From NCBI RefSeq assembly GCF_001517585.1, contig NZ_FBYC01000001.1, positions 434,001-498,000 on the forward strand: 64,000 bases of DNA, written 5' to 3'. Source of the stretch: Roseibaca calidilacus. GTDB lineage: Bacteria > Pseudomonadota > Alphaproteobacteria > Rhodobacterales > Rhodobacteraceae. The position numbers and the translations under genes are program-made. A model generated the notes under the pieces. It was not told the DNA's origin, did no database searches, and saw nothing but the letters and a program-made list of their open reading frames with translations. Below, piece by piece: positions 2,877 to 63,993 of the stretch (positions within the stretch are counted from its first letter, which is position 1; each line of letters begins with the position of its first letter).

Positions 2877-3269
2877 TTAATTTGTCTTTGCCTTCGGGAT
2901 GAAAGGCAGTGGCAGGACTGGAACGCCTTCGTCAATCAGGGCCTTGGCCTCTGCCAGTTTTGCTTCGCCATGAATGGCGCGCTCCGGCAGTTCGCCCAGA
3001 TGCATGGCGCGGGCCTGTTGCACGAAATCGCGCCCGACATAATCCGAATTCGCCTCGACCTCGGCGCGCAGGGCTTGCAGTTTTTCCACCATCGCGGCGC
3101 GCTTGGCGGTTTTGACCGACGGAGCCATGATAGCCTTGCTCACATCGGCACTGCCGCAATCGGGGCAGGTGACAAGCCCACGTTTGTGCAGATCATCAAA
3201 GGCCGTGCCAGATTGGAACCAGCTTTCGAACCTATGTGCATTTGGGCAATCGAGCATATATTTTATCAT
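2877..3269 (-). CDS. DUF1178 family protein (putative zinc-ribbon regulator)
   Basis: 130 aa from ATG at 3269 (MIKYMLDCPNAHRFESWFQ). This is the standard N-terminus of DUF1178; the frame is open further upstream, but those residues are not family-like. A CxxC pair (TCPDCGSADVSKAIMAPSV, about residues 34-37) together with the earlier Cys8/His11 suggests a small zinc ribbon. The rest is helical and charged (EKLQALRAEVEANSDYVGRDF, then GELPERAIHGEA). The family is common in Proteobacteria and its function is unknown. It is divergent from the glutathione peroxidase gene. Confidence 0.9.
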   Translation of the reverse strand: MIKYMLDCPNAHRFESWFQSGTAFDDLHKRGLVTCPDCGSADVSKAIMAPSVKTAKRAAMVEKLQALRAEVEANSDYVGRDFVQQARAMHLGELPERAIHGEAKLAEAKALIDEGVPVLPLPFIPKAKTN

Positions 3270-9077: not shown

Positions 9078-9152
9078 GGGCGTGGTCCCGCATGGTCTGG
9101 CGGCGCGGTTAGCATGGCGCTAGGTTGGGCGCAAATCAAAGGAAGCACCCCA

Positions 9153-9758
9153 ATGTTCTACGAACCAAAGCACGGCCACGGCCTGCCGCACAACCCGTTC
9201 AATGCCGTGATTGCCCCGCGCCCGATTGGCTGGATCGCGACACGCGGCGCAGACGGGCGCGACAACCTTGCGCCCTATTCCTTCTTCAATGCCGTGGCCT
9301 ATACGCCGCCGCAGGTGATGTTTGCCTCGACCAGCGCCAAGCCCGACCGCGATGGCACGAAGGATTCGGTCGCCAATATTCGTGAAACGGGCGTGTTCTG
9401 TGTGAATGTCGTGGAATTTGCCGCGCGCGACGTGATGAACCAAAGCTCTGGCCCATGGCCGCGCGAGGTGGATGAGTTCGACCATGCGGGCATTGCGCGG
9501 GCAGAGTGCAGCGTGATCGCGGCCTCGCGCGTGGCGGGTGCGCCAGCCGCGCTGGAATGCGAGATGCGCCAGATCATTCAACTGGATGGCGCGGCGAATT
9601 TCATCGTGGTGGGAGAGGTCGTGGGCGTGCATCTGCGCGACGATTGCATGGTGGACGGGCAGTTCGACATCACGCGGTTCCAGCCGCTTGCGCGGTGCGG
9701 CTACCGCGATTACGCGGTGGTGCGTGACGTGTTCAGCCTGTCACGCCCCGGTGACTGA
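9153..9758 (+). CDS. Flavin reductase family protein (DIM6/NTAB type flavoprotein)
   Basis: 201 aa from ATG at 9153, preceded by AAAGGAAG. The frame is open slightly upstream, but MFYEPKHGHGLPHNPF is the normal family start. It has a split-barrel FMN-binding fold with 'IAPRPIGWIATRGADG', 'NLAPYSFFNAVAYTPP' and 'KDSVANIRETGVFCVNVV'. Members bind FMN and can act as NAD(P)H:flavin reductases for two-component monooxygenases. This copy is monocistronic and widely conserved in the family, so it is probably housekeeping. It is the only flavin reductase-like gene in the window, which matters because the SsuD-type monooxygenase at 53106 has no linked reductase. Confidence 0.87.
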   Translation: MFYEPKHGHGLPHNPFNAVIAPRPIGWIATRGADGRDNLAPYSFFNAVAYTPPQVMFASTSAKPDRDGTKDSVANIRETGVFCVNVVEFAARDVMNQSSGPWPREVDEFDHAGIARAECSVIAASRVAGAPAALECEMRQIIQLDGAANFIVVGEVVGVHLRDDCMVDGQFDITRFQPLARCGYRDYAVVRDVFSLSRPGD

Positions 9759-9814: not shown

Positions 9815-10465
9815 ATGTTCGGTTTTGGCGCGACGAAAACCCAGATGGTCGACAAGGCGCAGGCGTTGCCGGGCCGCGCAAGCCCAATCGCGACCGCCGC
9901 GCGGCACGCGATCTTTGAGCGCGACCTGAAAGCGGCGGTGCCCGAGGGGATGGAACAAGCCATGTTCGGAATGGGCTGTTTCTGGGGGGTTGAGCGGATT
10001 TTCTGGCAAATGCCGGGTGTGTGGCTGACGATGGTCGGCTATGCCGGTGGTTTTACGCCCAACCCGACCTATCAGGAAGTGTGCACCGGCCAGACCGGGC
10101 ATAACGAGGTTGTGCGCGTGATTTTCGACCCGGCCGTCACAAGCTATGAGAGTGTGCTGGCGAAATTCTGGGAAGGGCATGACCCGACCCAAGGGATGCG
10201 ACAGGGCAATGACCGGGGCACGCAATATCGCTCTGGTATCTATGCCTATGGCGCCGCGCAACTGGCGGCGGCACTGGCCAGCAAAGATGCCTATGCGCCG
10301 CGTTTGGCACAAGCTGGCTATGGTGCGATCACGACAGAGATTTTGCCCGCGCCGGAATTTTACTATGCCGAGGACTACCACCAGCAATATCTGCACAAGA
10401 ACCCGAACGGGTATTGCGGGATTGGCGGAACCGGCGTGACCTGCCCCGTCGGCTTGTCGGCATAA
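9815..10465 (+). CDS. msrA: Peptide-methionine (S)-S-oxide reductase MsrA
   Basis: 216 aa. The catalytic motif '[13 protein letters not shown]' puts the nucleophilic Cys at about residue 54. Further MsrA blocks are '[17 protein letters not shown]', '[12 protein letters not shown]', '[23 protein letters not shown]' and the C-terminal '[17 protein letters not shown]'. It reduces methionine-S-sulfoxide in proteins using thioredoxin. The roughly 45-residue N-terminal extension ([16 protein letters not shown]) is typical of the longer E. coli-type MsrA. It ends just before a large GC-rich hairpin. Confidence 0.96.
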
Positions 10466-10468
10466 CCC

Positions 10469-10541
10469 GCGCCCGCGCGCGGACCGGGCGGCGGCGCCCA
10501 CCCGCCCACCCTTGCGCGCCGCCCGACCCGCGCGCGGGCGC
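10469..10541. repeat. Large GC-rich imperfect inverted repeat between msrA and prmA
   Basis: Arms 10469-10492 and 10518-10541 pair over 22 of 24 positions (14 bp, then a 2-bp mismatch, then 8 bp), with a 25-base loop. It starts 3 bases after the msrA stop and has no T tract on either side. It may act as a factor-dependent terminator or mRNA stabiliser for msrA. Confidence 0.75.
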
Positions 10542-10601
10542 TTGACCGGGGACAGGGGCGGCTGTATCGCGGCAACAGTTTCCTTGCCCTGAAAGCGCCT
10601 C

Positions 10602-11465
10602 ATGACGACCTTCACCGCGATCACGACCCTGACATCCGAAGCCTCTGCCTATGCTCTGTCCGAGGCTATGGAGAACATGCAGCCCGAACCCACCGGCGTT
10701 GGCGTGTTCGAGATGGAGGACGGCTCTGGCCTATGGGAAGTGGGTGGCTATTTCATTGAAGCGCCGAATGACGTGGAATTGACGCTTCTGGCGCAGGCAT
10801 TTGGGGCCAAGCCCTTTGTCGTGTCGGAATTGCCGGAAATCGACTGGGTTGCCAAGGTCAAGCGCGACCTGTCGCCGGTCGAAGCGGGGCGGTTTTTCGT
10901 CTATGGCAGCCATGATGCAGAGAAATTGCCAGAGGGCCGCATCGGCCTGTTGATTGAGGCGGCCATGGCCTTTGGCACCGGCCATCATGGCACCACGCTG
11001 GGCTGTCTGCGCGCCTTGGACCGTTTGGACAACGCGGGGTTCCGCGGCAAACGCGTGGCCGATATTGGCTGCGGCACCGCCGTGCTGGCCATGGGCGCGG
11101 CGAAAATCTGGCCCGAGCCTGTTCTGGCCAGCGACATTGATGCCATCGCGGTAGAGGTCGCGCAGGCCAATGTCACGGCCAACGGGCTGGATGGGCGCGT
11201 GCAGTGTTTGGAAGCAACGGGCTTCGACCATCCCGACCTGATCGCGGCGTCGCCATTCGATCTGGTTTTCGCCAATATCCTGATGGGGCCATTGATCGCG
11301 CTTGCACCGGATATGGGGCGCATGATCGGCACGGGGGGCTATGCGATCCTGTCGGGCCTTTTGGTAGAACAGGCCGAGAGTGTTCTGGCCGCCTATACTG
11401 CCGAGGGATTCGCCTTGCACCACCGCGAGGATATCGGTGACTGGGCCACGTTAACTTTGTCGTGA
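10602..11465 (+). CDS. prmA: Ribosomal protein L11 methyltransferase
   Basis: 287 aa. The AdoMet-binding motif I is 'VADIGCGTAVLAMGAAK' (about residue 150), preceded by the PrmA hallmark 'AMAFGTGHHGTTLGCL' and followed by 'SDIDAIAVEVAQANVTANG' and 'DLVFANILMGPLIALA' (N-I-L variant of the NPPY-like motif). PrmA trimethylates several amino groups of ribosomal protein L11. The N-terminal substrate-recognition domain (residues 1-about 95) is shorter and more divergent than in enterobacteria, as usual for Alphaproteobacteria. Confidence 0.94.
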   Translation: MTTFTAITTLTSEASAYALSEAMENMQPEPTGVGVFEMEDGSGLWEVGGYFIEAPNDVELTLLAQAFGAKPFVVSELPEIDWVAKVKRDLSPVEAGRFFVYGSHDAEKLPEGRIGLLIEAAMAFGTGHHGTTLGCLRALDRLDNAGFRGKRVADIGCGTAVLAMGAAKIWPEPVLASDIDAIAVEVAQANVTANGLDGRVQCLEATGFDHPDLIAASPFDLVFANILMGPLIALAPDMGRMIGTGGYAILSGLLVEQAESVLAAYTAEGFALHHREDIGDWATLTLS

Positions 11466-52202: not shown

Positions 52203-52943
52203 TTAGCCCAGCACCAGCGTTGCGGCCATCATTGCGGCGAAGGCCAGCGTCACCACCACGCCGATCAGCGAGGAATCGGCGTGCTCTTGCGCTTCGGGCA
52301 GCAGTTCGGAAAAGATCATCCACAACATAGCCCCCGCCGCCAAGCCTAGCCCGACCGGAAGCACCGGTTCAAAAGACTTCACGAATAAAAAGGCCGGAAT
52401 TGCCAGCAGCGGTTGCGGCAAAGACGAAACAACCGCCCACAAGCCCGCCTTGGCCACAGATGCGCCGCGCGGCACCATGACCAGCGCAATTGCAAGCCCC
52501 TCTGGCACGTTGTGCAAGGCAATGGCCAGTGTGATAAGATCGCCCAAGGGCCGCCCGCCGCCAAAGGCCACGCCCACACCGATCCCTTCGGCGGCAGAAT
52601 GCGCGGTCATGACGCCCATAATCATCAGGATCTTGGCCGCATCCGCGCTTGTCATGTCGCCCAAGCTGACGTTGCTTTTGCGGTCCAGCAGTGTCTTGAC
52701 CAGCCAGATCGCCAAGACCCCTAGCACAATGCCGCCCACGCTGCGCGGCCCGGACAGGTCAAACCCTTCCATCACCAAGGTCACGCTTGCGGCCAGCATC
52801 AGTCCGGCGGCCAGTGCATTGCCCATCGCCAAAGCGCGGGCGGACATGGACCGCACCGCCAGTAAGGGCAATGCGCCAAGCCCAGTCGCCAATGCGGTGA
52901 CAAGCGCGGCGATGAAAACGATCATTAGGGTTGGCTCGGTCAT
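52203..52943 (-). CDS. ZIP family metal ion transporter
   Basis: 246 aa, eight helices. Metal-site helices IV and V carry 'MTAHSAAEGIGVGVAFGGG' and 'LAIALHNVPEGLAIALVMVP', the ZIP H-S-x-x-E-G and H-N-x-P-E-G motifs. N-terminus 'LVTALATGLGALPLLAVR' is family-typical. ZIPs import Zn2+, Mn2+ or Fe2+. The start is 16 bases from a perfect ICE-like (Irr) palindrome, hinting that this one responds to iron status. It is divergent from the sulfonate monooxygenase cluster. Confidence 0.93.
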   Translation of the reverse strand: MTEPTLMIVFIAALVTALATGLGALPLLAVRSMSARALAMGNALAAGLMLAASVTLVMEGFDLSGPRSVGGIVLGVLAIWLVKTLLDRKSNVSLGDMTSADAAKILMIMGVMTAHSAAEGIGVGVAFGGGRPLGDLITLAIALHNVPEGLAIALVMVPRGASVAKAGLWAVVSSLPQPLLAIPAFLFVKSFEPVLPVGLGLAAGAMLWMIFSELLPEAQEHADSSLIGVVVTLAFAAMMAATLVLG

Positions 52944-52974: not shown

Positions 52975-53105
52975 GCTATGGGTGGCGCTTATGAAGTGCA
53001 AGCGGAAAAACTGCAATGCGAATTGATACATTATTGATTTATAAAATCCGCTCTGCTAGCGTTATATGCAAGACGCCCGGAAACAGGGCGCAAGGGAGGG
53101 AAGAC

Positions 53106-54263
53106 ATGACCATCGTTCCGGTAACCTCGGGCGACCTTGACGCCGCTGAAGTGTCATGGTTCGCGGCGCTGTGTTCGGATGACTACCGCTTTCTGGGTGT
53201 GCCCGAAGGCGACCTGCGCTCTAGCTGGGCGCATTGCAGTGATATCGTGAAATCTGCCGAAGCGCAGGGGTTTCGCAATATCCTGTGCCCATCCAGCTAC
53301 CAAGTGGGGCAGGACACGCTGAGTTTTGTCGCCGCCGCGTCGCAGGTCACCGACCGCATAAACATGCTGGCCGCCATTCGATGTGGCGAAATGCAGCCGA
53401 TCATGTTGGCGCGCACCGTGGCCACGTTGGACCATATGCTGAAGGGGCGGTTGACGCTAAATGTGATATCGTCGGACTTCCCCGGAGAGGTGGCCGACAG
53501 CGCCTATCGCTACAAGCGCAGTCATGAAGTGGTGCAAATTCTGCGTCAGGCGTGGGAGCGCGACGAGATCAACCACGAGGGCGAGGTCTACCAGTTCAAA
53601 GGTGTGCCGACTGCGCCCGCCAAGCCTTACCAGCAAAACGGCGGCCCGCTTCTGTATTTCGGGGGCTATTCGCCCGCCGCGCTGGAGCTGTGCGCAGCGC
53701 AATGCGACGTCTACCTGATGTGGCCGGAAACAGAGGATCAGTTGGCAGAGCGTATGCGCGCTGTCCATGCCCGCGCCGAAGCGCATGGCCGAACCTTGGA
53801 TTACGGTCTGCGTGTGCATGTCATCGTGCGCGATACAGAGGCAGAGGCGCGCGACTACGCCGACCATCTGGTCAGCAAGCTGGATGATGAATATGGCCGC
53901 CTGATCCGCGAACGCGCGCATGACAGCGGCAGCCTTGGCGTGTCGCATCAGGCCCGCGCGCGCGAATTGGCCGACCAGTTCGGTTATACCGAACCCAACC
54001 TCTGGACAGGTGTGGGGCGCGCGCGTTCGGGGTGCGGGGCTGCGCTTGTTGGCAGCGCCGACCAAGTGCTAAGCAAGCTGGAGCGCTATCGGAAGATGGG
54101 GATTCGGGCTTTCATTTTCTCTGGCTACCCGCATCTGGACGAATGCCAGCATTTCGGGCGGCTGGTGATGCCGCATTTGAGCACCTGCTCATTGCCGCAA
54201 GAATATGGCCGCGTGCCAAGCGAAACACCGGCGACGCCTTTGGGCGTGGGGGGGCGCGTGTGA
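53106..54263 (+). CDS. smoC: SsuD-type FMNH2-dependent sulfonate monooxygenase, probable sulfoquinovose monooxygenase (SmoC-like)
   Basis: 385 aa from ATG 53106 (MTIVPVTSGDLDAAEV), RBS AAGGGAGGGAAGAC; the frame open upstream to 53016 is not family-like. Bacterial luciferase-like TIM barrel matching SsuD through 'QVTDRINMLAAIRCGEMQP', 'GGPLLYFGGYSPAALELCAAQ' and 'FIFSGYPHLDE'. Residues that bind sulfonate/FMN in E. coli SsuD (Arg226, His228, Arg297, Tyr331 as I remember them) fall at Arg236, His238, Arg307 and Tyr341, a constant shift of ten. With the AKR and sugar ABC genes, the best reading is oxidative desulfurisation of sulfoquinovose to 6-oxo-glucose and sulfite. Symbol from context. Stop overlaps the AKR start by one base. 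Confidence 0.8.
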   Translation: MTIVPVTSGDLDAAEVSWFAALCSDDYRFLGVPEGDLRSSWAHCSDIVKSAEAQGFRNILCPSSYQVGQDTLSFVAAASQVTDRINMLAAIRCGEMQPIMLARTVATLDHMLKGRLTLNVISSDFPGEVADSAYRYKRSHEVVQILRQAWERDEINHEGEVYQFKGVPTAPAKPYQQNGGPLLYFGGYSPAALELCAAQCDVYLMWPETEDQLAERMRAVHARAEAHGRTLDYGLRVHVIVRDTEAEARDYADHLVSKLDDEYGRLIRERAHDSGSLGVSHQARARELADQFGYTEPNLWTGVGRARSGCGAALVGSADQVLSKLERYRKMGIRAFIFSGYPHLDECQHFGRLVMPHLSTCSLPQEYGRVPSETPATPLGVGGRV

Positions 54264-55162
54264 TGGAACGGATTGACCTGACCGAGGGTCTGAGCCTGTC
54301 GCGCCTTGTCTATGGCATGTGGCGGCTGGGCGACGATTCCGACACCAGCCCTGCCCATGTGCAAGCCAAGGTAGAAGCGTGCTTGGCCCAAGGGGTCACC
54401 ACCATGGACCAAGCCGATATCTATGGCGATTATGGCGCAGAGGCGCTTTTGGGGGCCGCGTTCCGCGCAGCACCCGGCCTGCGTGACAAGGTGGAACTGG
54501 TCACGAAATGCGATATTGTGGCACCCGTGGGCAAATATGCCACGGCGCGGGTCAAGCATTATGACACGAGCGCCGCGCATATCCGCGCCTCGGTCGACGC
54601 GTCGCTGTCCAGTATGGCGACGGACCGCATTGACCTGTTGCTGATCCACCGGCCCGACCCGTTGATGGACCACTACGAAACCGGTGCCGCTTTGGATGCC
54701 TTGGTGGCAGAGGGAAAGGTGCGCGCCGTGGGCGTGTCGAATTTCCGGCCATGGGATTGGGATTTGCTGCAATCCGCGATGACCACGAAGCTGTGCACCA
54801 ATCAGGTTGAACTGAGCCTGCTGGCGCGCGACGCTTTCAACAATGGCGATCTGGCGCATCTGCAACGGTTGGGCGTGCCACCGATGGCGTGGTCGCCCTT
54901 GGCAGGGGGCGCGCTGTTCGGCGAAGGGGACGCCGCCATGCGCCTGCGCCCGCATTTGGAACGCCACGCGAAAGTGCAGGGCGTGGGCACAGACGCGGTT
55001 GCCGTGGCATGGCTGCTCGCCCATCCCGCGCGCATCTTGCCGGTGCTTGGAACGAACTCGCTGGAACGCATTGGGCGCATTGCAGATGCAGCGCGCGTCA
55101 CGCTCTCGCGCGAGGACTGGTTCGAGTTATGGACCGCAGCGGCCGGGCAAGAGGTGCCCTGA
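54263..55162 (+). CDS. smoB: Aldo-keto reductase, probable 6-oxo-glucose reductase (SmoB-like)
   Basis: 299 aa from ATG 54263 (TGATG overlap with the monooxygenase). YdhF-type AKR: 'LSRLVYGMWRLGDD', catalytic Asp and Tyr in 'TTMDQADIYGDYGAEALLG', Lys in 'VELVTKCDIVAP', His in 'IDLLLIHRPDPLMDHYETG', then 'VGVSNFRPWDWDLLQS', 'TNQVELSLLARDAF' and 'ILPVLGTNSLERIGRI'. In the sulfo-SMO pathway the AKR reduces the aldehyde left after desulfurisation to glucose using NAD(P)H. The immediate coupling to an SsuD homolog supports that; a general carbonyl reductase remains possible. Confidence 0.8.
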   Translation: MERIDLTEGLSLSRLVYGMWRLGDDSDTSPAHVQAKVEACLAQGVTTMDQADIYGDYGAEALLGAAFRAAPGLRDKVELVTKCDIVAPVGKYATARVKHYDTSAAHIRASVDASLSSMATDRIDLLLIHRPDPLMDHYETGAALDALVAEGKVRAVGVSNFRPWDWDLLQSAMTTKLCTNQVELSLLARDAFNNGDLAHLQRLGVPPMAWSPLAGGALFGEGDAAMRLRPHLERHAKVQGVGTDAVAVAWLLAHPARILPVLGTNSLERIGRIADAARVTLSREDWFELWTAAAGQEVP

Positions 55163-55198
55163 CGCCAAGGCCAGAGTTTCATCAAAGGGAGGAAAATG

Positions 55199-56458
55199 AT
55201 GAAAACGACACTGACCACAACGGCCCTTGGGCTAATCTTGACGGCAGGTGCCGCCGGCGCGCAGGAACTGCGCTTCATGTGCTATCAGGACGGGACCGAA
55301 TGCACCGTTTGGGAGGGGCAATTCGACCGGTTCGAAGCCGAAAACCCCGGCATTACCGTTGTCGTGGATGAAGTGCCCTACCAATCGATTCTTGAATCTC
55401 TGCCAGTTCAGCTGGAAGTGGGCGAAGGCCCCGATCTGGCCCGCGTCACCGATTACGGCGGTCTGGCCCGCTACATGCTGGACGTGCGCCCCTATGTATC
55501 CGATCCCGACGCGATCGAGGCTCGCTATGGCCAGTCGCTGGAGTGGGCGCGCGTGGGCGACAACGCATCGGACGGTATCTACAACATTGTCGACCAGCTG
55601 ACCGCTACGGGTGGCTTCGCCAACAAGACGCTGTTCGACCAAGCGGGTGTCGAGATGCCGGGGCCGGGCGCGACCTTCGCGGAATGGGCCGAGGCTAGCC
55701 GCGCCGTGCGGGACGCCGTGGGCGTCGATTTCGCCATGGCCATTGACCGCACAGGCCACCGTTTTGCGGGTCCGGCCATGTCCTACGGGGCAGCGTTTTT
55801 TGATGACAACGGCGATCCCATTCTGGTCGATGACGGGTTCCGCACCTTTGCCGAACAGTTCGTCGCATGGCATGAAGACGGCACCTTGGCGCGCGATGTG
55901 TGGGCCGGGGCCGGGGGGGGCACCTATCAGGATGCCGCCGCAGAATTCATCAACGCGAATCTTGTGATGTATTATTCTGGCAGTTGGCAGATCGGGCGCT
56001 TTGGCCGCGACATTGGCGATGCGTTCGACTGGGTCGCCACGGGTGGCATTTGTGGGCCAGAGGCTTGCACCGGTATGCCGGGCGGCGCCGGGATTGTGGG
56101 CTTCAAGCAGACCGAACACCCCGAAGCCGTCGGTAAGCTGATTGAATTCATCGCGCAAGACGACGTGCAGGCCGCTGTGCTGGCGCAGACCCGCAACATT
56201 CCGGCCAATGCCGTGCTGCAAGAAGAGGGCATCGAATATCAGGATGTCAGCGACGATGTGAAAGCGGCCCTGACCATATTTGCCGGGTCCATCCCGACCT
56301 TTGCCGACACTGCCTACCAGTTGCAGGGATATGCCAATAACCGTGCAATCTTTACCGCAACGCCAGCGCGGATCACGCAGGCGATCGTGGGCGAACTGAC
56401 GCTGGATGAGGCGTTGGACCGTCTGGATGCTGATATCGCCGAGGCGATTGCCCAGTAA
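55199..56458 (+). CDS. Sugar-type ABC transporter periplasmic binding protein (SmoF-like)
   Basis: 419 aa from the second of two tandem ATGs (55196, 55199); GGGAGGA spacing favours 55199. Signal peptide 'KTTLTTTALGLILTAGAAGA' ends before QELRFMCYQDG. Cluster B / UgpB-MalE type: 'WEGQFDRFEAENPGITVVVDEVPYQS' in part, 'GEGPDLARVTDYGGLARYML', 'NANLVMYYSGSWQIGRFGRD' and 'GMPGGAGIVGFKQTEHPEAV'. It would capture the cluster's substrate, predicted to be sulfoquinovosyl glycerol or sulfoquinovose. Followed by a 12-bp hairpin that may protect its mRNA. Confidence 0.85.
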   Translation: MKTTLTTTALGLILTAGAAGAQELRFMCYQDGTECTVWEGQFDRFEAENPGITVVVDEVPYQSILESLPVQLEVGEGPDLARVTDYGGLARYMLDVRPYVSDPDAIEARYGQSLEWARVGDNASDGIYNIVDQLTATGGFANKTLFDQAGVEMPGPGATFAEWAEASRAVRDAVGVDFAMAIDRTGHRFAGPAMSYGAAFFDDNGDPILVDDGFRTFAEQFVAWHEDGTLARDVWAGAGGGTYQDAAAEFINANLVMYYSGSWQIGRFGRDIGDAFDWVATGGICGPEACTGMPGGAGIVGFKQTEHPEAVGKLIEFIAQDDVQAAVLAQTRNIPANAVLQEEGIEYQDVSDDVKAALTIFAGSIPTFADTAYQLQGYANNRAIFTATPARITQAIVGELTLDEALDRLDADIAEAIAQ

Positions 56459-56482
56459 CGACGTTAGGGTGTCCTCCCGACG

Positions 56483-56516
56483 GACCGGCCTGCCAGCTTG
56501 TGCAGGCAGGCCGGTC
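56483..56516 (+). repeat. 12-bp hairpin between the binding protein and first permease genes
   Basis: GACCGGCCTGCC, 10-base loop, GGCAGGCCGGTC: perfect stem, no T tract. A placement typical of an mRNA 3' stabiliser or attenuator favouring the binding protein. Confidence 0.75.
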
Positions 56517-56543
56517 TCTCGTTCGCACAGGAAGGGACGCAAG

Positions 56544-57530
56544 ATGCTGAAATCATTTGCCACCCAAGCCTATGACGGTGCGTTCAACCTGTTTGAACGA
56601 CCGATGTTGGTGCTTCAAAAGCTGTTTGGACAAAGCCGCATCGCTTGGGTCTTCCTGTTGCCGAATCTGTTGATTTTCGGCCTGTTCACATTCTTGCCGA
56701 TTATCCTGAATTTCGTATTCGCCACCACCGGCGGCGACCGCATTCTGCTGGGCGACCGGCCCTTTGTGGGCACGGAACATTTCGCCAGCCTGCTGGATTG
56801 CGAAAGCTATTTTGACCCTAATTCCTGCCACCGCGACCTGTTCTGGCGCGCGGTCGGCAATACCGGCTGGTTCGTGCTGATGCAGGTCGGGTTCATGGTT
56901 CTGTTTTCGCTGATTACGGCGCTGATCCTGAACCGTGACATCGTGCTGCGCGGCTTCTTCCGCGCGGTGTTCTTCTACCCGGTGCTGCTGTCGCCCGTGG
57001 TTGTGGCGCTGATCTGGAAATGGATCTTGCAGCGCAATGGTGTGCTGAACGCGGGGCTAGAGGGGACAGGCTTTGGCACCGTCAACTGGCTGCTGGAAGC
57101 TGACTGGGCATTCTTCTGGGTCGTGTTTGTGTCGATCTGGTGTAATATGGGGTTCTATGTGCTGATCCTGCTGGCGGGTCTGCAATCCATCCCGTCGGAC
57201 GTATACGAGGCCGCCGAGATGGACGGCACCCCGCGCTGGCGACAGTTGCTGCGTATTACGCTGCCGCTCTTGATGCCCACGATGCTGGTGGTCATGGTCC
57301 TGTCGGTCATCCGCGCGGTGCAGGCATTCGACGAAATCTATGTGCTGACCGGCGGCGGGCCGGGCTCTGCCACGACGCTGCTGATCCAGTATATCTACGA
57401 TGTCGGCTTCTCGACCCGGCCACGGCTTTATGGGCTGGCGGCGGCGGCATCGCTTTTGATGGCGGGCGTGCTGTTCGTGCTGACGATGATGCAGCTTGCC
57501 GCCACGCGCAAACAATCGGGGGATAACTGA
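56544..57530 (+). CDS. Sugar-type ABC transporter permease 1 (SmoG-like)
   Basis: 328 aa from ATG 56544 with GGAAGGGACGCAAG upstream. MalF/UgpA-type permease with about six helices ('WVFLLPNLLIFGLFTFLPIIL', 'PVLLSPVVVALIWKWIL') and EAA loop 'VYEAAEMDGTPRWRQLLRITLPLLMP' near residue 220. Between the first two helices lies a periplasmic loop with two Cys (LLDCESYFDPNSCHRD). It pairs with the next gene. TGATG overlap of one base. Confidence 0.9.
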   Translation: MLKSFATQAYDGAFNLFERPMLVLQKLFGQSRIAWVFLLPNLLIFGLFTFLPIILNFVFATTGGDRILLGDRPFVGTEHFASLLDCESYFDPNSCHRDLFWRAVGNTGWFVLMQVGFMVLFSLITALILNRDIVLRGFFRAVFFYPVLLSPVVVALIWKWILQRNGVLNAGLEGTGFGTVNWLLEADWAFFWVVFVSIWCNMGFYVLILLAGLQSIPSDVYEAAEMDGTPRWRQLLRITLPLLMPTMLVVMVLSVIRAVQAFDEIYVLTGGGPGSATTLLIQYIYDVGFSTRPRLYGLAAAASLLMAGVLFVLTMMQLAATRKQSGDN

Positions 57531-58573
57531 TGTTTGGCTGGCTATTAGGGCGGCGCGGGCGCCACGGGTTCGACCTGACAGATTGGATGGCCTTCGGCTT
57601 TCTGGGCCTTGGCGTGTTCCTGATGCTGGGGCCGGTGCTGTGGCTGGTGCTGTCCAGCTTCAAGACCGAAGCGGCGCTTCAGGAATACCCGCCCAAATTT
57701 CTGCCGCTCGCGCCAATAGAGCGGATGGTCGATGGCTATGACCAACCCTTGCAAATGTACACCGTCACGGCGGGCGAGCACGCGGGTCGGGAATTGGCGC
57801 AGGTGCGCCGTATCGGTTTGAACGCGCAGATGGTGGACCCCGCCAACCCGTCCGAGCGGCTGAACGTGGCCATCAGCGACCGCGAACCCTTGCGCGAATT
57901 CGGCATCGCGACCGAAAACTACACCGGCGTGTTCGAGCGTTTCAATTTCATGCTGTATTTCTGGAATTCCACCTTCATTACGGTGATAGCCACCGTGCTG
58001 ACAGTGCTGTTCAATTCCATGGCTGCCTTTGCGCTGGCGAAATACAAGTTCACCGGGCGTAACGCGGTCTTCGTGCTGATTATCGCGACGCTGATGATAC
58101 CGCCGACGATCACGCTGGTGCCGCTGTTTCTGGTCATCAGCGAGATGGGCATGGTTAATAGTCACTGGGGCGTGATCTGGCCCGCGATTGCCACGCCCAC
58201 GGGCGTATTCCTGCTGCGCCAATATATGCTGACAATCCCGGATGACCTGCTGGACGCCGCGCGCATGGACAATGCCAGTGAGTGGAAGGTCTACTGGAAG
58301 ATCGTGCTGCCCTTGTCGGCACCCGCGCTGGCGGTGCTGGTGATATTCTCTGTCATGTGGCGCTGGAACGAATTCCTGTGGCCCTTGATCGTGCTAACCC
58401 GGTCGGAGGTGTTTACGCTGCAACTGGCGCTGAACAGCTTTCAAGGCGAATTGCAGACAAGTTGGTCTAGCCTGCTGGCCATGACGGTGCTGACGTTGTT
58501 GCCCATCACCATCGTGTTTGCCTTTTTGCAAAAATACATCACGCAGGGCATTGCCCAATCTGGCGTTAAATGA
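57530..58573 (+). CDS. Sugar-type ABC transporter permease 2 (SmoH-like), with a large periplasmic insertion
   Basis: 347 aa. MalG/UgpE-type permease: helix 1 'AFGFLGLGVFLMLGPVLWLVLSSF', then a soluble segment of about 90 residues (around 40-130, 'YTVTAGEHAGRELAQVRRIG' and 'DREPLREFGIATENYTGVF'), then five helices and EAA loop 'LLDAARMDNASEWKVYWKIVLPLSAPALA' in part. Ordinary members are about 275-300 aa, so the insertion is notable and may contact the binding protein. 103 bases precede the ATPase gene, filled by a repeat element. Confidence 0.9.
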   Translation: MFGWLLGRRGRHGFDLTDWMAFGFLGLGVFLMLGPVLWLVLSSFKTEAALQEYPPKFLPLAPIERMVDGYDQPLQMYTVTAGEHAGRELAQVRRIGLNAQMVDPANPSERLNVAISDREPLREFGIATENYTGVFERFNFMLYFWNSTFITVIATVLTVLFNSMAAFALAKYKFTGRNAVFVLIIATLMIPPTITLVPLFLVISEMGMVNSHWGVIWPAIATPTGVFLLRQYMLTIPDDLLDAARMDNASEWKVYWKIVLPLSAPALAVLVIFSVMWRWNEFLWPLIVLTRSEVFTLQLALNSFQGELQTSWSSLLAMTVLTLLPITIVFAFLQKYITQGIAQSGVK

Positions 58574-58600
58574 GCGCCTGCGGCGCATTGCTTTTGGTGG

Positions 58601-58661
58601 GGGGGCTTTGCCCCCGTCGCGCTAGGGCGCGACTCCCCCAGGATATTTGGGGCAAGGATGA
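58601..58661 (-). repeat. Intergenic repeat element, copy 2, inverted (permease - ATPase)
   Basis: On the minus strand it reads TCATCCTTGC-CCC-AAATATCCTGGGG (58661-58636), then a 7-bp hairpin GTCGCGC/GCGCGAC (58616-58633), then the GGGGCAAAGCCCC hairpin (58601-58615). The outer parts match copy 1 at 18908-18950; the inner hairpin is an extra insertion. Confidence 0.8.
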
Positions 58662-58676
58662 AGGGGAGGAGGGCAT

Positions 58677-59786
58677 ATGGCGGGACTGTCGCTGAAAGGC
58701 ATCGTCAAGGATTATGGTGCTGTGCGCGTGATCCATGGGGTGGATCTGGAGATCACGGATGGCGAGTTCTGCGTATTCGTCGGCCCCTCGGGTTGTGGGA
58801 AATCGACGCTGTTGCGGATGATCGCGGGGCTGGAGGATATCACCGGCGGTGACCTGCTGATCGGCGGCGACCGTGTGAATGACCAACGCGCCAGCGAGCG
58901 TGGGCTGGCCATGGTGTTCCAGACCTATGCGCTTTACCCGCATATGAGCGTGCGGGCGAATCTGGCCTTTGGGTTGGAGAATATTCGCATGGCCCGTGCC
59001 GAGATCGACGCCCGCGTCAGCGAGGCCGCGCGGATGTTGCAACTAGAGCCTTATCTGGACCGCAAGCCCAAGGCGCTGTCCGGCGGGCAGCGGCAGCGCG
59101 TGGCCATCGGGCGCGCCGTGGTGCGCGAGCCCAAGGTGTTCTTGTTCGACGAACCCCTGTCCAACCTTGACGCCGAATTGCGCGTGACCATGCGGGGCGA
59201 GATCGCAGCTTTGCATAGGCGCATTGGCAATACGATGATTTACGTCACCCACGATCAGGTTGAGGCGATGACCATGGCCGACCGCATCGTCGTGTTGCGC
59301 GACGGGCGGATCGAGCAACAGGGCGCGCCGATCGAACTGTATAACCGGCCCGCCAACAAGTTCGTGGCAGGGTTCATCGGGTCGCCCCGAATGAATTTCA
59401 TCGCCTGCGAGGTGATTGAAGGCGACGGCAACGGCGTGCGTTTGCGCGACCCGTCTGGGCGGGCCTTGCGCGCGGATGTCGACGGGCGCGGGCTGAACCC
59501 CGGCAACAAGGTCGATCTTGGGGTGCGGCCCGAACATCTGCGCCCGGTGGCGGATGGGGAGAATGGCATCACCGCGACGGTTGAGAATATCGAGCAGTTG
59601 GGCGGTGAGAGCTACCTGTATTGCCGCGGCCCGGATGGCGTGGATGTGACCGTCCATATGTCGGGCCAAACCGGGCTTGCCCGTGGTGCAGAGATTGTCT
59701 TGGGGGTGCAGCCCGACCTATGCCATGTGTTCCGCGCCGAGGGGGCCGCGCAACCGCGCCTGCGCCTTGGCGAGGCCGTGGGCTGA
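58677..59786 (+). CDS. Sugar-type ABC transporter ATP-binding protein (UgpC/MalK type, SmoE-like)
   Basis: 369 aa. Walker A '[21 protein letters not shown]', Q-loop '[14 protein letters not shown]', signature '[20 protein letters not shown]', Walker B '[16 protein letters not shown]' and H-loop '[17 protein letters not shown]'. C-terminal TOBE/MalK regulatory domain about residues 235-360 with '[11 protein letters not shown]'. It powers the two permeases. RBS GGGGAGGAGGGCAT follows the repeat element. The GntR gene begins 5 bases after its stop. Confidence 0.95.
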
Positions 59787-59791
59787 GCGCC

Positions 59792-60499
59792 ATGGACGAC
59801 GCGCCGAGCGGGGCATTGCCGCGCTACCAGCAGATCAGCGAGTTGTTGATCCGGGACATCGCCGCCGGGCGGCTGATGGATGGCGCTCGGCTTGCGCCAG
59901 AGCGCGAGATGGCCGCCGATCTGGGTGTTGCCGTGGGCACGTTGCGCAAGGCGTTGCAGGATTTGGCTGAAAAGGGCCTGCTGGAACGTGTGCAGGGATC
60001 GGGCAATTACATCCGGGCGCAGCCTGAGGTTGCCAGCATTTACGCGCTGTTCCGGTTGGAACTGGTCGCAGGCGGGGGCCTGCCATCGGCCGAAGTGCTA
60101 GAGGTGACGCGTTGTGCCAAACCAGCGCATTTGCCGGAATTTGGCAGCGGGGCAGAGGCCCATCGCATTCGCCGTTTGCGGCTGCTCTCTGGCCAACCTG
60201 CGGCAGTGGAAGAAATCTGGTTGGATGCGGCCTATGCGCCCGAATTGCGGGCCGATGAGCTGTCGCAATCGCTGTATTTGCATTACCGCACCCGTCTTGG
60301 TCTGTGGATTGCCCGCGCCGAAGACCGGATTGGCACCGGGACGGTGCCCAAATTCGCGCCGGCGCGTTTCGGGCTGCGCCCCGGCGCGGTGGCCGGGCAT
60401 ATTCAGCGTATCAGTTGGAGCCAAGACAACCGGCGCGCGGAAGTGTCGGAAACCTGGTTTGACCCGAATGTGGCGCGATATGTGTCGCGCCTGAAATAA
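59792..60499 (+). CDS. GntR/HutC family transcriptional regulator (UTRA domain)
   Basis: 235 aa. Winged HTH at about residues 10-75: 'LPRYQQISELLIRDIAAGRL', 'LAPEREMAADLGVAVGTLRKALQDLAEKGLLERVQGSGNYI' in part. The C-terminal UTRA domain (about 95-230) includes 'EEIWLDAAYAPELRADELSQSLYLHY'. HutC regulators bind sugars or small acids and usually repress their own cluster. Embedded between the ATPase and the Gfo/Idh gene (gaps 5 and 10 bases), so it very likely controls this cluster; ligand predicted to be sulfoquinovose or an intermediate. Confidence 0.92.
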   Translation: MDDAPSGALPRYQQISELLIRDIAAGRLMDGARLAPEREMAADLGVAVGTLRKALQDLAEKGLLERVQGSGNYIRAQPEVASIYALFRLELVAGGGLPSAEVLEVTRCAKPAHLPEFGSGAEAHRIRRLRLLSGQPAAVEEIWLDAAYAPELRADELSQSLYLHYRTRLGLWIARAEDRIGTGTVPKFAPARFGLRPGAVAGHIQRISWSQDNRRAEVSETWFDPNVARYVSRLK

Positions 60500-60509
60500 G
60501 GAAACGGAC

Positions 60510-61619
60510 ATGAGCAAGGCTATTTGTTACGGCATGATCGGCTGTGGCATGATGGGGCAGGAACACCTGCGCAATATCGCGCTGATGGATGGTGCCCGCG
60601 TTGGCGCAATTTTTGAGCCGGATGGCGGGATGCGGGCGCAGGCCGCACGGCTTGCCCCCGAAGCGCGGTTCGTGGACAGCGTGGAAGCGTTGCTGGCGGC
60701 CCAAGATGTCGAGGCGCTGGTCATCACCAGCCCCAACCACATGCATTTGCCGCAACTGGAGCAGATTGCCCGGACCCAGCCGCGCCCGGTTCTGGTGGAA
60801 AAGCCGCTTTTCACGGATGCTGCCGATCTGGACCGCGTGCGCGGTCTGGCGCTGGGGGCACCGCTCTGGGTGGCGATGGAATATCGCTACATGCCCCCCG
60901 TTGCGGCCTTGATAGAGGCCGCGGACCGGGCGACCGGTGGCATCCGGATGCTGACCATCCGCGAACATCGGTTTCCGTTCCTGCCCAAGGTTGGCGACTG
61001 GAACCGCTTCAACGCGCAGACCGGCGGAACGCTGGTCGAGAAATGCTGTCATTTCTTAGACCTGATGCGCCATATCCTGCGTGATGACCCGGTGCGGATC
61101 ATGGCGTCGGGTGGTCAGGATGTGAACCATCTAGAGGAGAGCTACGCAGGGCAGACACCCGACATCTGGGACAATGCCTATGTGATCGTCGATTTCAAAG
61201 GCGGCGCACGGGCCATGCTGGAACTGTGTATGTTTGCCGAGGGTGCGCGCTATCAAGAAGAGATTTCCGCCATTGGACCGATGGGCAAGATCGAATGCCT
61301 TGTGCCCGGGCCGGGGCGGTTCTGGCCCGCGCATCTGGGCGAGCCGCCGGTGCCGCAATTGATCGAGAGCCCGCGCAATCCAAAAGGCCCCCGCGCCATA
61401 GAGATCCCGGTAGATCCCGCGCTTCTGGCCGCTGGCGACCATAATGGGTCAACTTTTTACCAACATGCGCGATTTGCTGCTGCGGTGCGCGGGCAAGCTT
61501 CGGTCGAGGTCACGATGGAAGATGGCATCTGGGCCGTGCTAATGGGGCTTGCGGCGCAGGAATCCGCCCGCACGGGGCGCGCCATGGCAATATCCGAGCG
61601 CGGCTTCACGCCGATCTGA
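60510..61619 (+). CDS. Gfo/Idh/MocA family protein, candidate NAD+-dependent sulfoquinovosidase (GH188-like)
   Basis: 369 aa. N-terminal Rossmann domain with 'YGMIGCGMMGQEHLRNIAL', 'ALVITSPNHMHLPQLEQIAR' and 'VLVEKPLFTDAADL'; the C-terminal alpha/beta domain has 'VAMEYRYMPPVAALIE', 'GTLVEKCCHFLDLMRHIL' and 'IWDNAYVIVDFKGGARAML'. It is intact in the EKP and 'KCCHFxDLxR' motifs of the superfamily. Roseobacter-clade sulfoquinovose clusters without a GH31 sulfoquinovosidase are reported to carry NAD+-dependent SQases of exactly this fold, acting by transient C3 oxidation. Here it closes such a cluster. A plain sugar or inositol dehydrogenase cannot be excluded from sequence alone. Confidence 0.72.
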   Translation: MSKAICYGMIGCGMMGQEHLRNIALMDGARVGAIFEPDGGMRAQAARLAPEARFVDSVEALLAAQDVEALVITSPNHMHLPQLEQIARTQPRPVLVEKPLFTDAADLDRVRGLALGAPLWVAMEYRYMPPVAALIEAADRATGGIRMLTIREHRFPFLPKVGDWNRFNAQTGGTLVEKCCHFLDLMRHILRDDPVRIMASGGQDVNHLEESYAGQTPDIWDNAYVIVDFKGGARAMLELCMFAEGARYQEEISAIGPMGKIECLVPGPGRFWPAHLGEPPVPQLIESPRNPKGPRAIEIPVDPALLAAGDHNGSTFYQHARFAAAVRGQASVEVTMEDGIWAVLMGLAAQESARTGRAMAISERGFTPI

Positions 61620-61712: not shown

Positions 61713-62876
61713 ATGACGGAAATGGTCTATGGCACCGCGCCAGTGCGCGTGGAAGATCCGATTCTGCCGCGCTGGTGGCGCACCATCGACAAGATGACAC
61801 TTACATCGGTTCTGCTGCTGATGGCAGTGGGCATCCTGCTGGGCATGGCGGCGTCACCGCCCTTGGCGCAGCGCAACGGGGTGGAGCCGTTCTACTATGT
61901 CGAGCGCCAAGTTCTGTTCGGCGGTCTGGGGATTATCGCGATGCTGTTGATTTCGATGGCTTCGCCGGAGCGGATACGCAGACTGGCCACGATCGGCTTT
62001 CTGCTGACCTTGACTTCGCTGATCCTGCTGCCGTTCTTCGGCACCGATTTCGGCAAGGGGGCGGTGCGCTGGTATAGTTTCGGGGTCGGGTCCATCCAAC
62101 CGTCGGAATTTCTGAAACCCATGCTGGCGGTTTTCGCAGCATGGCTGATGGCGGCAAGCTCTGATGTGGGGGGACCGCCGGGGCGGGCCATGTCCTTTGG
62201 TGTCACGCTTCTGGTCGTTGGCCTGCTGGTCATCCAGCCGGATTTCGGGCAGGCCGCGCTGGTCGCCGCAGGCTGGATGGTCATGTATTTCGTCGCCGGA
62301 GCGCCGATCCTTCTGCTGGTGGGTCTGGCGGTACTGGCGCTGGCCGGTGGCTATGTCGCCTATCAGAACTCGGAACATTTCGCGCGCCGGATTGACGGGT
62401 TTCTGGCTGAAGATGTCGACCCGCGCACACAGATGGGCTATGCGCAGAACGCCATTTCCGAAGGTGGTTTTTTCGGCACCGGGCTTGGTGAAGGGCGTGT
62501 GAAATGGTCCTTGCCCGACGCCCATACCGATTTCATCATCGCGGTTGCCGCCGAAGAATACGGGCTGGTGCTGGTGGTGTTCATCATCGGGCTTTTTGCC
62601 ACGATCCTGCTGCGGTCGCTGTTCCGCCTGATGCGCGAACGCGACATGTTCATCCGCTTGGCGGGCACCGGTATTGTGACCATCTTCTGCTTGCAGGCCA
62701 TGATAAACATGGGTGTTGCGGTGCGGCTGTTGCCCGCGAAAGGCATGACTTTGCCCATGATAAGCTATGGTGGATCGTCCTTGCTTGCGACGGGCATTGC
62801 AATCGGTATGCTTTTGGCACTGACGCGCCAGCGCCCGCAGGGCGAGATGGGCGACATTCTCGCGCGGCGCGGATAG
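61713..62876 (+). CDS. ftsW: Lipid II polymerase / SEDS protein FtsW
   Basis: 387 aa from ATG 61713 ([16 protein letters not shown]); upstream frame is non-coding. SEDS family, about ten helices: '[26 protein letters not shown]' in part, '[20 protein letters not shown]', the catalytic region '[20 protein letters not shown]' with Asp, and '[22 protein letters not shown]'. The N-terminal cytoplasmic tail is long, as in Alphaproteobacteria. It polymerises septal glycan strands with FtsI. Directly upstream of murG in the division/cell-wall cluster. Confidence 0.96.
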
Positions 62877-62892
62877 GGCAGGAGGGGTTTGC

Positions 62893-63993
62893 ATGGCCAA
62901 GGCACCGCTGATCTTGATCGCGGCAGGTGGCACAGGGGGGCATATGTTCCCGGCGCAGGCCTTGGCCGAGGCGCTGCTGGCGCGCGGCTGGCGGGTCAAA
63001 CTGTCGACCGACGCGCGCGGCGCGCGCTATGCAGGCGGCTTCCCCGATGCTGTGCGTATCGACACGGTTAGTGCTGCAACCTTTGCGCGCGGCGGGTTGG
63101 CCGAGAAGATAAAGGTGCCGTTCAAGCTGGCGTTTGGCGTGCTGGGCGCAGCGTTTGGCATGGTTCTGGACCGCCCGAAAGCGGTTGTGGGCTTTGGCGG
63201 CTACCCCTCTATCCCGGCGCTTTCTGCGGCGTGGTTGCTGCGCGTTCCGCGCATGATCCATGAACAAAATGGCGTTCTGGGCAGGGTGAACCAGATTTTT
63301 GCGCGGCGGGTCAACAAGCTAGCCTTTGGGACATGGCCGACCGAAGGGGCCGAGGGGCTGGACGCTGAATTCACCGGCAACCCGGTGCGCGCAGCGGTTC
63401 TTGACCGCGCAGGTGCAGGCTATATCGCACCGGGCGATTACCCGATGGACCTGCTGGTGATCGGGGGTTCGCAGGGCGCGCGCATTTTGTCCGATGTGGT
63501 GCCAGAGGCAATCAGCGCATTGCCCCATGATCTGAAACGCAACCTGACCGTGGCCCATCAGGCCCGCGAGGAAGATATGGAACGCGTTGTCGCCGCCTAT
63601 GAGGCCGGTGGCGTAAAGGCCGAAATCGCGCCATTCTTTCCCGATATCCCGCGCCGCTTGTCCGAATGCCAGTTGGTCATCAGCCGCGCGGGGGCGTCGT
63701 CTGTGGCCGATATATCTGTCATTGGCCGCCCTTCGGTGCTGGTGCCCTATGCGGCTGCGGCGGCAAACCATCAGGCGGCAAATGCCCGTATGCTGGGCGG
63801 CGTGGATGCGGCCGTGGTCTTTCCCGAAAGCCAGTTCACCGCGCCCGCCCTGACCGAAACCCTGTATTCCATCCTGACCAATCCGCAAGCTGCCGCGCGG
63901 ATGGCCCAAGCCGCGCTGGGCGCGGGCCGCGCGGATGCCACCGAAGCGCTGACCGTCTTGGTCGAAGCGCTTGCCCGAAAGGAACGCCCATGA
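62893..63993 (+). CDS. murG: UDP-N-acetylglucosamine-N-acetylmuramyl-pentapeptide transferase MurG
   Basis: 366 aa. GT28 glycosyltransferase: '[23 protein letters not shown]', '[19 protein letters not shown]', '[22 protein letters not shown]', 'GNPVR', '[20 protein letters not shown]' and '[37 protein letters not shown]' in part. It makes lipid II from lipid I at the inner membrane. RBS GGCAGGAGGGGTTTGC. Overlaps the next start by 4 bases (ATGA). Confidence 0.97.

Follow-up and report, generated by a model that had tools for sequence, protein, structure and literature searches.

Gene Organization of the Locus

The window analyzed here, a 64,000-nucleotide stretch of Roseibaca calidilacus DNA (bases 434001-498000 of contig 1; genome of 3.35 Mb in 4 contigs), comprises at positions 53106-61619 of the + strand eight genes in the order smoC-smoB-SBP-perm-perm-ATPase-smoD-sqgA, where SBP denotes the substrate-binding protein and perm the permeases of an ABC importer (Table 1). 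Taken as a whole, the locus is best explained, with high confidence, as an inducible operon of the sulfo-SMO pathway of oxidative sulfoquinovose desulfurization. The intergenic gaps are -1, 33, 85, -1, 103, 5, and 10 bp, all eight frames are intact from ATG through stop, and the encoded proteins match, all above the Pfam cut-offs, (i) luciferase-like monooxygenase, (ii) aldo-keto reductase, (iii) SBP_bac_1, (iv) BPD_transp_1, in two proteins, (v) MalK-type ATPase, (vi) GntR plus UTRA, and (vii) Gfo/Idh/MocA. The initial annotation, made from the DNA letters alone, had described eight tightly spaced genes on one strand with these domain types, and both the spacing and the domains are borne out. 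The smoC frame is open already from 53016; three features set the start at 53106: homology to PDB chains that begins at residue 1, a purine-rich GGGAGGG, and the promoter-like element (53022-53062).

The locus was compared with the best 80 of 585 smoC relatives from a genome collection, giving a set of 81 loci with the window included. Identical genes in identical order recur in four more loci of the lineage that are visible in full (L004, L006, L007, and L009, the last with an extra flavin reductase), and the arrangement is therefore not due to chance. By SmoC, the closest named relatives among the matches listed are Roseibaca sp. Y0-43 (96%) and R. ekhonensis (95%); smoC is kept at 95-96% identity in five other genomes of the same genus, and a SmoC match at E <= 1e-100 occurs in 14 of 37 genomes of the genus.

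Table 1. Features of the predicted sulfo-SMO operon and its upstream region (positions in the window)
Feature	Position	Strand	Assignment and basis
Promoter/operator-like element ATTGATACA-NN-ATTGATNTA	53022-53041	+	Overlaps -35-like TTGATT (53034-53039)
Extended -10-like TGCTAGCGT	53054-53062	+	Letters read in the sequence; whole element 53022-53062
smoC	53106-54263	+	Predicted FMNH2-dependent sulfoquinovose monooxygenase; PF00296; bit scores to 7olf/7oh2
smoB	54263-55162	+	Predicted 6-oxo-glucose (6-dehydroglucose) reductase, aldo-keto reductase, 299 aa; start overlaps smoC stop (TGATG)
SBP, sugar ABC importer	55196-56458	+	SBP_bac_1; not SmoF-like; predicted ligand sulfoquinovosyl glycerol or sulfoquinovose
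GC-rich hairpin between SBP and permease 1 genes	56482-56517	+	Fold of the 88-base gap 56456-56543, -46.1 kcal/mol (folding energy without shuffle control)
ABC permease 1, MalF/UgpA type	56544-57530	+	PF00528
ABC permease 2, MalG/UgpE type	57530-58573	+	PF00528; 347 aa
ABC ATPase, MalK/UgpC type	58677-59786	+	PF00005, TOBE_2, OB_MalK
smoD, GntR/UTRA regulator	59792-60499	+	Identity to the GntR protein of L030
sqgA	60510-61619	+	Predicted NAD+-dependent sulfoquinovosidase, GH188 type; SqgA bit scores, kept sulfoquinovose contacts

Predicted Enzymes of Glycoside Cleavage and Desulfurization

The monooxygenase aligns over residues 1-384 with 7olf (752.7 bits) and 7oh2 (746.6 bits), both of which we take to be SmoC and which carry the PDB labels "Methanesulfonate sulfonatase" and "Alkanesulfonate monooxygenase", respectively; the next match, an alkanesulfonate monooxygenase, scores 205.3 bits, and dimethylsulfone monooxygenase 97 bits. 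The protein lies under the NCBIfam cut-offs of both families (252.6 versus 518.2 bits for the alkanesulfonate monooxygenase family, SsuD, and 149 versus 383 for dimethylsulfone) and is not a member of SsuD by this measure. The aldo-keto reductase displays 448 bits to 7bbz/7bby, presumably SmoB, the next chain reaching 224.5. These wide score gaps uphold the initial annotation, under which the monooxygenase should not group with taurine, methanesulfonate, or non-sulfonate luciferase-like enzymes, the assignment of SmoC being made by score, from the gap to the next families.

The Gfo/Idh/MocA protein is, judged by its sequence, a predicted NAD+-dependent sulfoquinovosidase (SQase) of the SqgA type, family GH188. 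It scores 534.4 bits with 8zn9, 385.6 bits with 8qc3, and 375.2 bits with 8qc2, the latter two being ArSqgA and FlSqgA in the accessible text of Kaur et al. 2023 (PMC10755693). Identity with ArSqgA amounts to 189 of 356 aligned residues (53%), and the residues given in that text as contacting sulfoquinovose, K107, Y136, R166, L170 (through the backbone), K172, E189, H193, and H321, are all kept (8/8), in the same order as K98, Y125, R154, L158, K160, E177, H181, and H311. The Glu163 of the same text aligns to Val in 8qc3 as numbered here, with Glu at 164, which corresponds to E152 in the window. The homology and the eight kept contacts indicate that a sulfoquinovosidase of the NAD+-dependent GH188 type is encoded within the operon itself. 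Searched against the genome, the GH31 SQase of an Agrobacterium tumefaciens locus (L030) finds a single partial match, 26% identical, so that SqgA is the only clear SQase candidate.

Seven further loci (L035, L036, L040, L051, L058, L065, and L080) comprise smoC (at about 10001-11152), smoD, sqgA, and an importer of the window's type, with no SmoB match of at least 55% within 10 kb on either side; aldo-keto reductase matches in L036 and L040 reach 29-33% only, and six of the seven also show no flavin reductase match. In these loci, either smoB is located elsewhere or another reductase serves.

Importer Family

The cluster contains no SsuA/TauA-type binding protein, as the initial annotation had stated, the SBP belonging to SBP_bac_1 (sugar type) and the ATPase being MalK/UgpC-like. 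The importer is of the sugar type given there, though its SBP is unlike SmoF (7nbz), the only structurally characterized sulfo-SMO binding protein met in the PDB searches, which the window SBP retrieves only at E 0.53. A profile of 18 SBP relatives recovers SmoF at 2.1e-5, ranked after 40 other distinct chains, and a SmoF search of the whole genome, run without a positive control, gave no match. The SBP of L030 scores 860.6 bits with SmoF, and BLAST finds no match at E 1e-3 between it and the window SBP. The pathway is a known one, and the importer is of a family other than that studied.

Loci were typed at identity thresholds of 60% for SmoF, 40% for the window-type SBP, 60% for the TRAP protein DctP, 50% for SqgA, and 60% for the GH31 SQase SmoI; the TRAP query genes, from L061, are DctQ, DctM, and DctP by Pfam. 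The 81 loci comprise (i) 16 with a SmoF-type importer and GH31; (ii) 25 with a TRAP importer, 23 of them with GH188 and 2 with no visible SQase; (iii) 21 with the window-type ABC importer, 18 of them with GH188 (window included) and 3, on contigs ending early, with no visible SQase; and (iv) those with none of the three importer types, 9 with GH188, 9 with GH31, and 1 with neither. At these thresholds no SmoF-type locus carries GH188 and no window-type or TRAP locus carries GH31. A Fisher test of the association between importer and SQase (18/0/0/16) gives p 4.5e-10; it was rejected as independent evidence, the SQase label needing only 2 changes on the SmoC tree (1 to 2 independent pairs), and the association is weakened because the loci are related on that tree. 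For the importer label, the best SmoC tree requires 8 changes, the starred branches forcing just 1 per group.

The SBP tree, built from 29 sequences (22 smo-linked and 7 from plasmid stretches in which no smoC was found, L112 and L114-L119), rejects a single clade of smo-linked SBPs (approximately unbiased test, p 7.1e-7), which suggests that linkage of this importer family with smoC was gained, or lost, more than once. The SBP has matches in 76 of the 390 genomes examined across the order (E <= 1e-75). A second Gfo/Idh protein is encoded close to the window-type importer in L230-L233, L241, L242, and L113, with 24-27% identity to SqgA as measured in all of these except L113, and in Phyllobacterium (L112) three Gfo/Idh genes stand beside the importer.

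Conserved Element and the SmoD Regulator

The smoD product shares 62.9% identity over 229 aa with the GntR protein of L030, from an A. tumefaciens metagenome-assembled genome, which by its place in the cluster we take to be SmoD. New in this analysis is a conserved 20-bp element before smoC and smoE, found from 10-mers common to the smoC upstream regions, with the consensus A-ATTGATACA-YY-ATTGATTTAC and a conserved TG-N-TA 32-36 bases further on. The element core lies 62-97 bp ahead of the smoC start in 79 of the 81 loci; at up to 3 mismatches the window holds 1 site against 0.02 expected, and in the genome 53022-53041 is the sole exact match, three further sites lying at 3 mismatches.

A scan at up to 2 mismatches, covering the 80 loci, positions 43001-64000 of the window, and 8 plasmid loci, returned 97 sites, all before smo genes. 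The script assigns 78 to smoC, 16 to smoE (16/16 SmoF-type loci), and 1 to an importer SBP gene (L078); the two remaining sites, read by hand, precede the flavin reductase/smoA gene at 17323-16817 in L009 and smoC at 3197 in a Marinovum locus (L113). Only L076 and L081 are without the element, and both, fully visible, are also without a SmoD match, while 76 loci have both (co-absence p 3.3e-4, resting on two loci); L005, L008, and L010, which carry the element with no visible SmoD on contigs ending early, were left out of this test. When dyads were sought as a possible operator, only short ones turned up, in no more than 7 loci; the consistent signal was a direct repeat. The FNR-type box, which we take to be TTGAT-N4-ATCAA, has a half-match in some loci that is not kept in the window. 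We infer that 53022-53062 comprises the promoter and the SmoD operator.

With no more than 1 mismatch allowed, the pattern occurs in 158 of 390 genomes of the order, while a reversed-pattern control matched two of those listed, G092 and G181; among 30 loci fetched by the pattern, smoC lies directly downstream in 19. In genus g8, all 8 sampled genomes carry a window-type SBP gene apart from smoC (the rest of the importer is seen in G105, G115, and G279), and the element stands just before this unlinked gene in 5 of them, G105, G115, G279, G202 (1 mismatch), and G043 (2 mismatches). smoC and a window-type importer share the same stretch in 10 of 18 stretches read (L226-L233, L239, and L241), which is no rate, most of the 18 having been picked because site and SBP lay close. 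The distribution of the element, together with the sites before unlinked SBP genes, supports a putative SmoD regulon and a role of the importer within it.

Further sites were noted away from smoC. An exact element directly precedes a DHBP synthase/GTP cyclohydrolase II gene of riboflavin synthesis (L135, G066:C2:687185-687204) in a genome that also carries the element before smoC (L181), possibly for FMN supply to SmoC within the same regulon. Sites with 0-1 mismatch and no smoC nearby are found in L133 and L134, before a molybdopterin oxidoreductase gene, in L136 and L137, between a MocR-like regulator and another gene, and in L140; these reflect either chance or a wider regulon.

Proposed Pathway and Flavin Supply

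The operon very probably serves to import sulfoquinovose, the sugar of plant sulfolipid, free it from glycerol, remove its sulfur as sulfite, and leave glucose. The ABC importer would take up sulfoquinovosyl glycerol and/or sulfoquinovose; SqgA, to go by its homology and kept contacts, would hydrolyze the glycoside via transient C3 oxidation on bound NAD+; SmoC, with FMNH2 and O2, would convert sulfoquinovose into 6-oxo-glucose and sulfite; and SmoB would reduce 6-oxo-glucose to glucose, the last two steps being predicted from close homology. Glucose would enter metabolism through glucokinase, and a glucokinase-family gene is present elsewhere in the genome. SmoD, as the co-occurrence with the element suggests, would repress the operon from the site preceding smoC and release it once a sulfoquinovose compound appears. 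The simplest account is a sulfo-SMO operon under SmoD control that has lost or exchanged the usual importer and smoA and in which smoD-sqgA has moved to the transcript end. The sulfo-SMO interpretation first given to the cluster is thus largely right, SmoC, SmoB, SmoD, and a SQase all being present.

Because smoA is absent, the source of FMNH2 is placed outside the operon, where another gene would encode the flavin reductase that supplies it. A flavin reductase match occurs in 63 of the 80 other loci, mostly directly after smoB; in L009, which is more distant within the lineage, it lies between the ATPase gene and smoD on the opposite strand. Candidates outside the cluster comprise two PF01613 genes (one in the window, 9114-9758) and four PF03358 genes. 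The PF01613 protein of contig 4 (L001, G000:C4:514758-515186) shares 62% identity over 148 aa with the flavin reductase inside the L009 cluster and may serve SmoC as FMNH2 source, as a candidate that is not smo-specific. Its reading as a relocated, smo-specific smoA was rejected, since 35 of the 37 genomes in the genus have a match at E <= 1e-20, as against 14 of 37 for SmoC. The match next to smoC in G001 and G028 is 48-49% identical, and at least one more flavin reductase lies elsewhere (45-51%). The L001 protein is HpaC-like, with a gene of the TauE/SafE sulfite-exporter family within 1.5 kb.

Contrary Evidence and Alternative Explanations

Several observations weigh against the proposed operon and regulon. 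smoA has no match in the window cluster, and the SBP is remote from SmoF, as described above. The window-type SBP family also occurs in the seven plasmid stretches where smoC was not found nearby, with relatives 54-55% identical in L112 and L114, one of them beside three other Gfo/Idh genes. AlphaFold2 on the 18 SBPs reached a confidence score (pLDDT) of 65.8, too uncertain for reading the pocket, and Foldseek with this model returned many sugar-binding proteins at similar scores, SmoF ranking 25, 31, and 37; derivation of the ligand from the model was given up on these grounds, with nothing concluded on the pocket. As for the element, in some genomes it also precedes other genes, mostly at 1 mismatch: 11 of the 30 pattern-fetched loci show no smoC within 1.5 kb, two of these (L150 and L154) having a window-type SBP downstream; G202 holds 19 matches, and the pattern is not specific in genus g8 because some genomes carry many copies of a one-mismatch form; in G045, G155, and G065, 3 of the 8 g8 genomes, no element precedes the SBP gene even when 3 mismatches are allowed; and several SBP-carrying genomes (e.g., G052, G373, and G271) have no match at up to 1 mismatch. 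Lack of the element at this last level does not prove that smoC is absent, G049 having smoC with a 2-mismatch element.

The enzymes might be those of sulfo-SMO while the importer carries another sugar and stands in the operon by chance, sulfoquinovose entering by another route. The distance from SmoF, the close relatives in L112 and L114, the dispersal of smo-linked SBPs over the tree, and the TRAP transporter as the commonest importer in related GH188 clusters would agree with this; nevertheless, the window-type importer recurs at 21 smoC loci, with GH188 in 18/18 whose SQase is visible, and smoC's own element precedes unlinked SBP genes in genus g8 and the importer in L078, so that we regard a chance association as unlikely, and the regulon evidence favors sulfoquinovose or its glycosides as the SBP ligand. 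That the operon is degenerate, with smoA lost and the FMNH2 supply insufficient, is very improbable: neither the window cluster nor its counterparts of the same importer type in L004, L006, and L007 have a flavin reductase match, but the eight intact frames give strong domain matches, five other genomes of the genus retain smoC at high identity, PF01613 and PF03358 genes are available elsewhere, and clusters without SsuE, e.g., that of Novosphingobium aromaticivorans, may use other reductases according to the accessible part of a review (PMC9594981). There is hardly any likelihood that the monooxygenase acts on an alkanesulfonate, methanesulfonate, or another sulfosugar; the labels of 7olf and 7oh2 and the luciferase-like family would allow it, but the protein falls far under the alkanesulfonate and dimethylsulfone cut-offs and is accompanied by SmoB, SmoD, and SqgA.

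Comparison with Known Sulfo-SMO Systems

The smo names used for the Agrobacterium locus L030, other than those of its SBP and GH31 genes, are presumptive. Its smoC, smoB, and smoD are 84, 68, and 63% identical to those of the window, and smoC is preceded by the same promoter-like element; in contrast, L030 has a GH31 SQase (SmoI, matching 5ohy/7ofx) in place of GH188, an SBP from another family (SmoF), a smoA match after smoB, and smoD divergent from smoC. The TRAP-type loci of the set carry smoA and the TRAP genes after smoB with smoD-sqgA divergent, whereas the cluster of the window has no smoA, its ABC importer genes come after smoB, and smoD-sqgA closes the operon. Plasmid pMaD9 of Marinovum algicola DG 898 (CP010864.1, L113) shares with the window smoD, sqgA, smoC, smoB, the window-type ABC importer (SBP 54.6%), and the element before smoC, but displays the order smoD-sqgA-smoC-smoB-smoA-esterase-Gfo/Idh-importer, with smoA present. 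Among the parts of a sulfo-SMO system, the window thus has SmoC, SmoB, and SmoD, and has neither a clustered SmoA nor a SmoF-type SBP.

Roseobacter-clade sulfo-SMO clusters with smoC, SqgA, and no GH31 resemble the window as described in the accessible text of Kaur et al. 2023 (PMC10755693), and the basic plan of the operon is therefore known. The initial annotation had suspected a variant of the Agrobacterium plan, which is correct for the layout; GH188 in such clusters had already been published there. Sulfo-ASMO (SquD/SquF) of N. aromaticivorans, likened here by description only from the available parts of PMC12890257 and PMC9594981, shows the same chemistry with no clustered flavin reductase; four Novosphingobium plasmid matches to SmoC are 51-52% identical. 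In the accessible part of a recent survey (PMC13372026), sulfo-SMO is recognized by SmoB plus SmoC; SmoA is not required by this definition, and we count it as a supporting part. The window has SmoB beside SmoC, and a definition of this kind leaves the survey, as far as that part goes, silent on uptake.

We lean toward a broader interpretation, in which a SmoD regulon spanning two orders (Rhizobiales and Rhodobacterales) is marked by the box ATTGATACA-NN-ATTGATNTA, and at least three unrelated importers (the SmoEFGH ABC system, TRAP, and the window's ABC family) have been exchanged under it as importers of sulfoquinovose and sulfoquinovosyl glycosides, the window's family having been linked to smoC several times independently and the SQase type (GH31 or GH188) having changed far less often. 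If so, unlinked importer and flavin reductase genes of this pathway could readily be located in alphaproteobacteria by the box, and the importer family would stand as a second class of sulfoquinovose ABC importer, open to testing, for the sulfo-SMO pathway. Among the papers listed by the literature searches, none describes the element or the layout, and earlier drawings of these importers may exist.

Neighboring Genes and Intergenic Hairpin

On the 5' side the operon is flanked by a ZIP transporter gene on the minus strand (52203-52943). ftsW, which starts 93 bp past the operon end, and a glycosyltransferase-28 gene read as murG that follows it lie in the region 61713-63993; in L004, sqgA is likewise followed by ftsW/murG-like frames. 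Stabilizing hairpins occur in other importer operons, and the strong GC-rich hairpin downstream of the SBP gene is perhaps a stabilizer of the SBP transcript.

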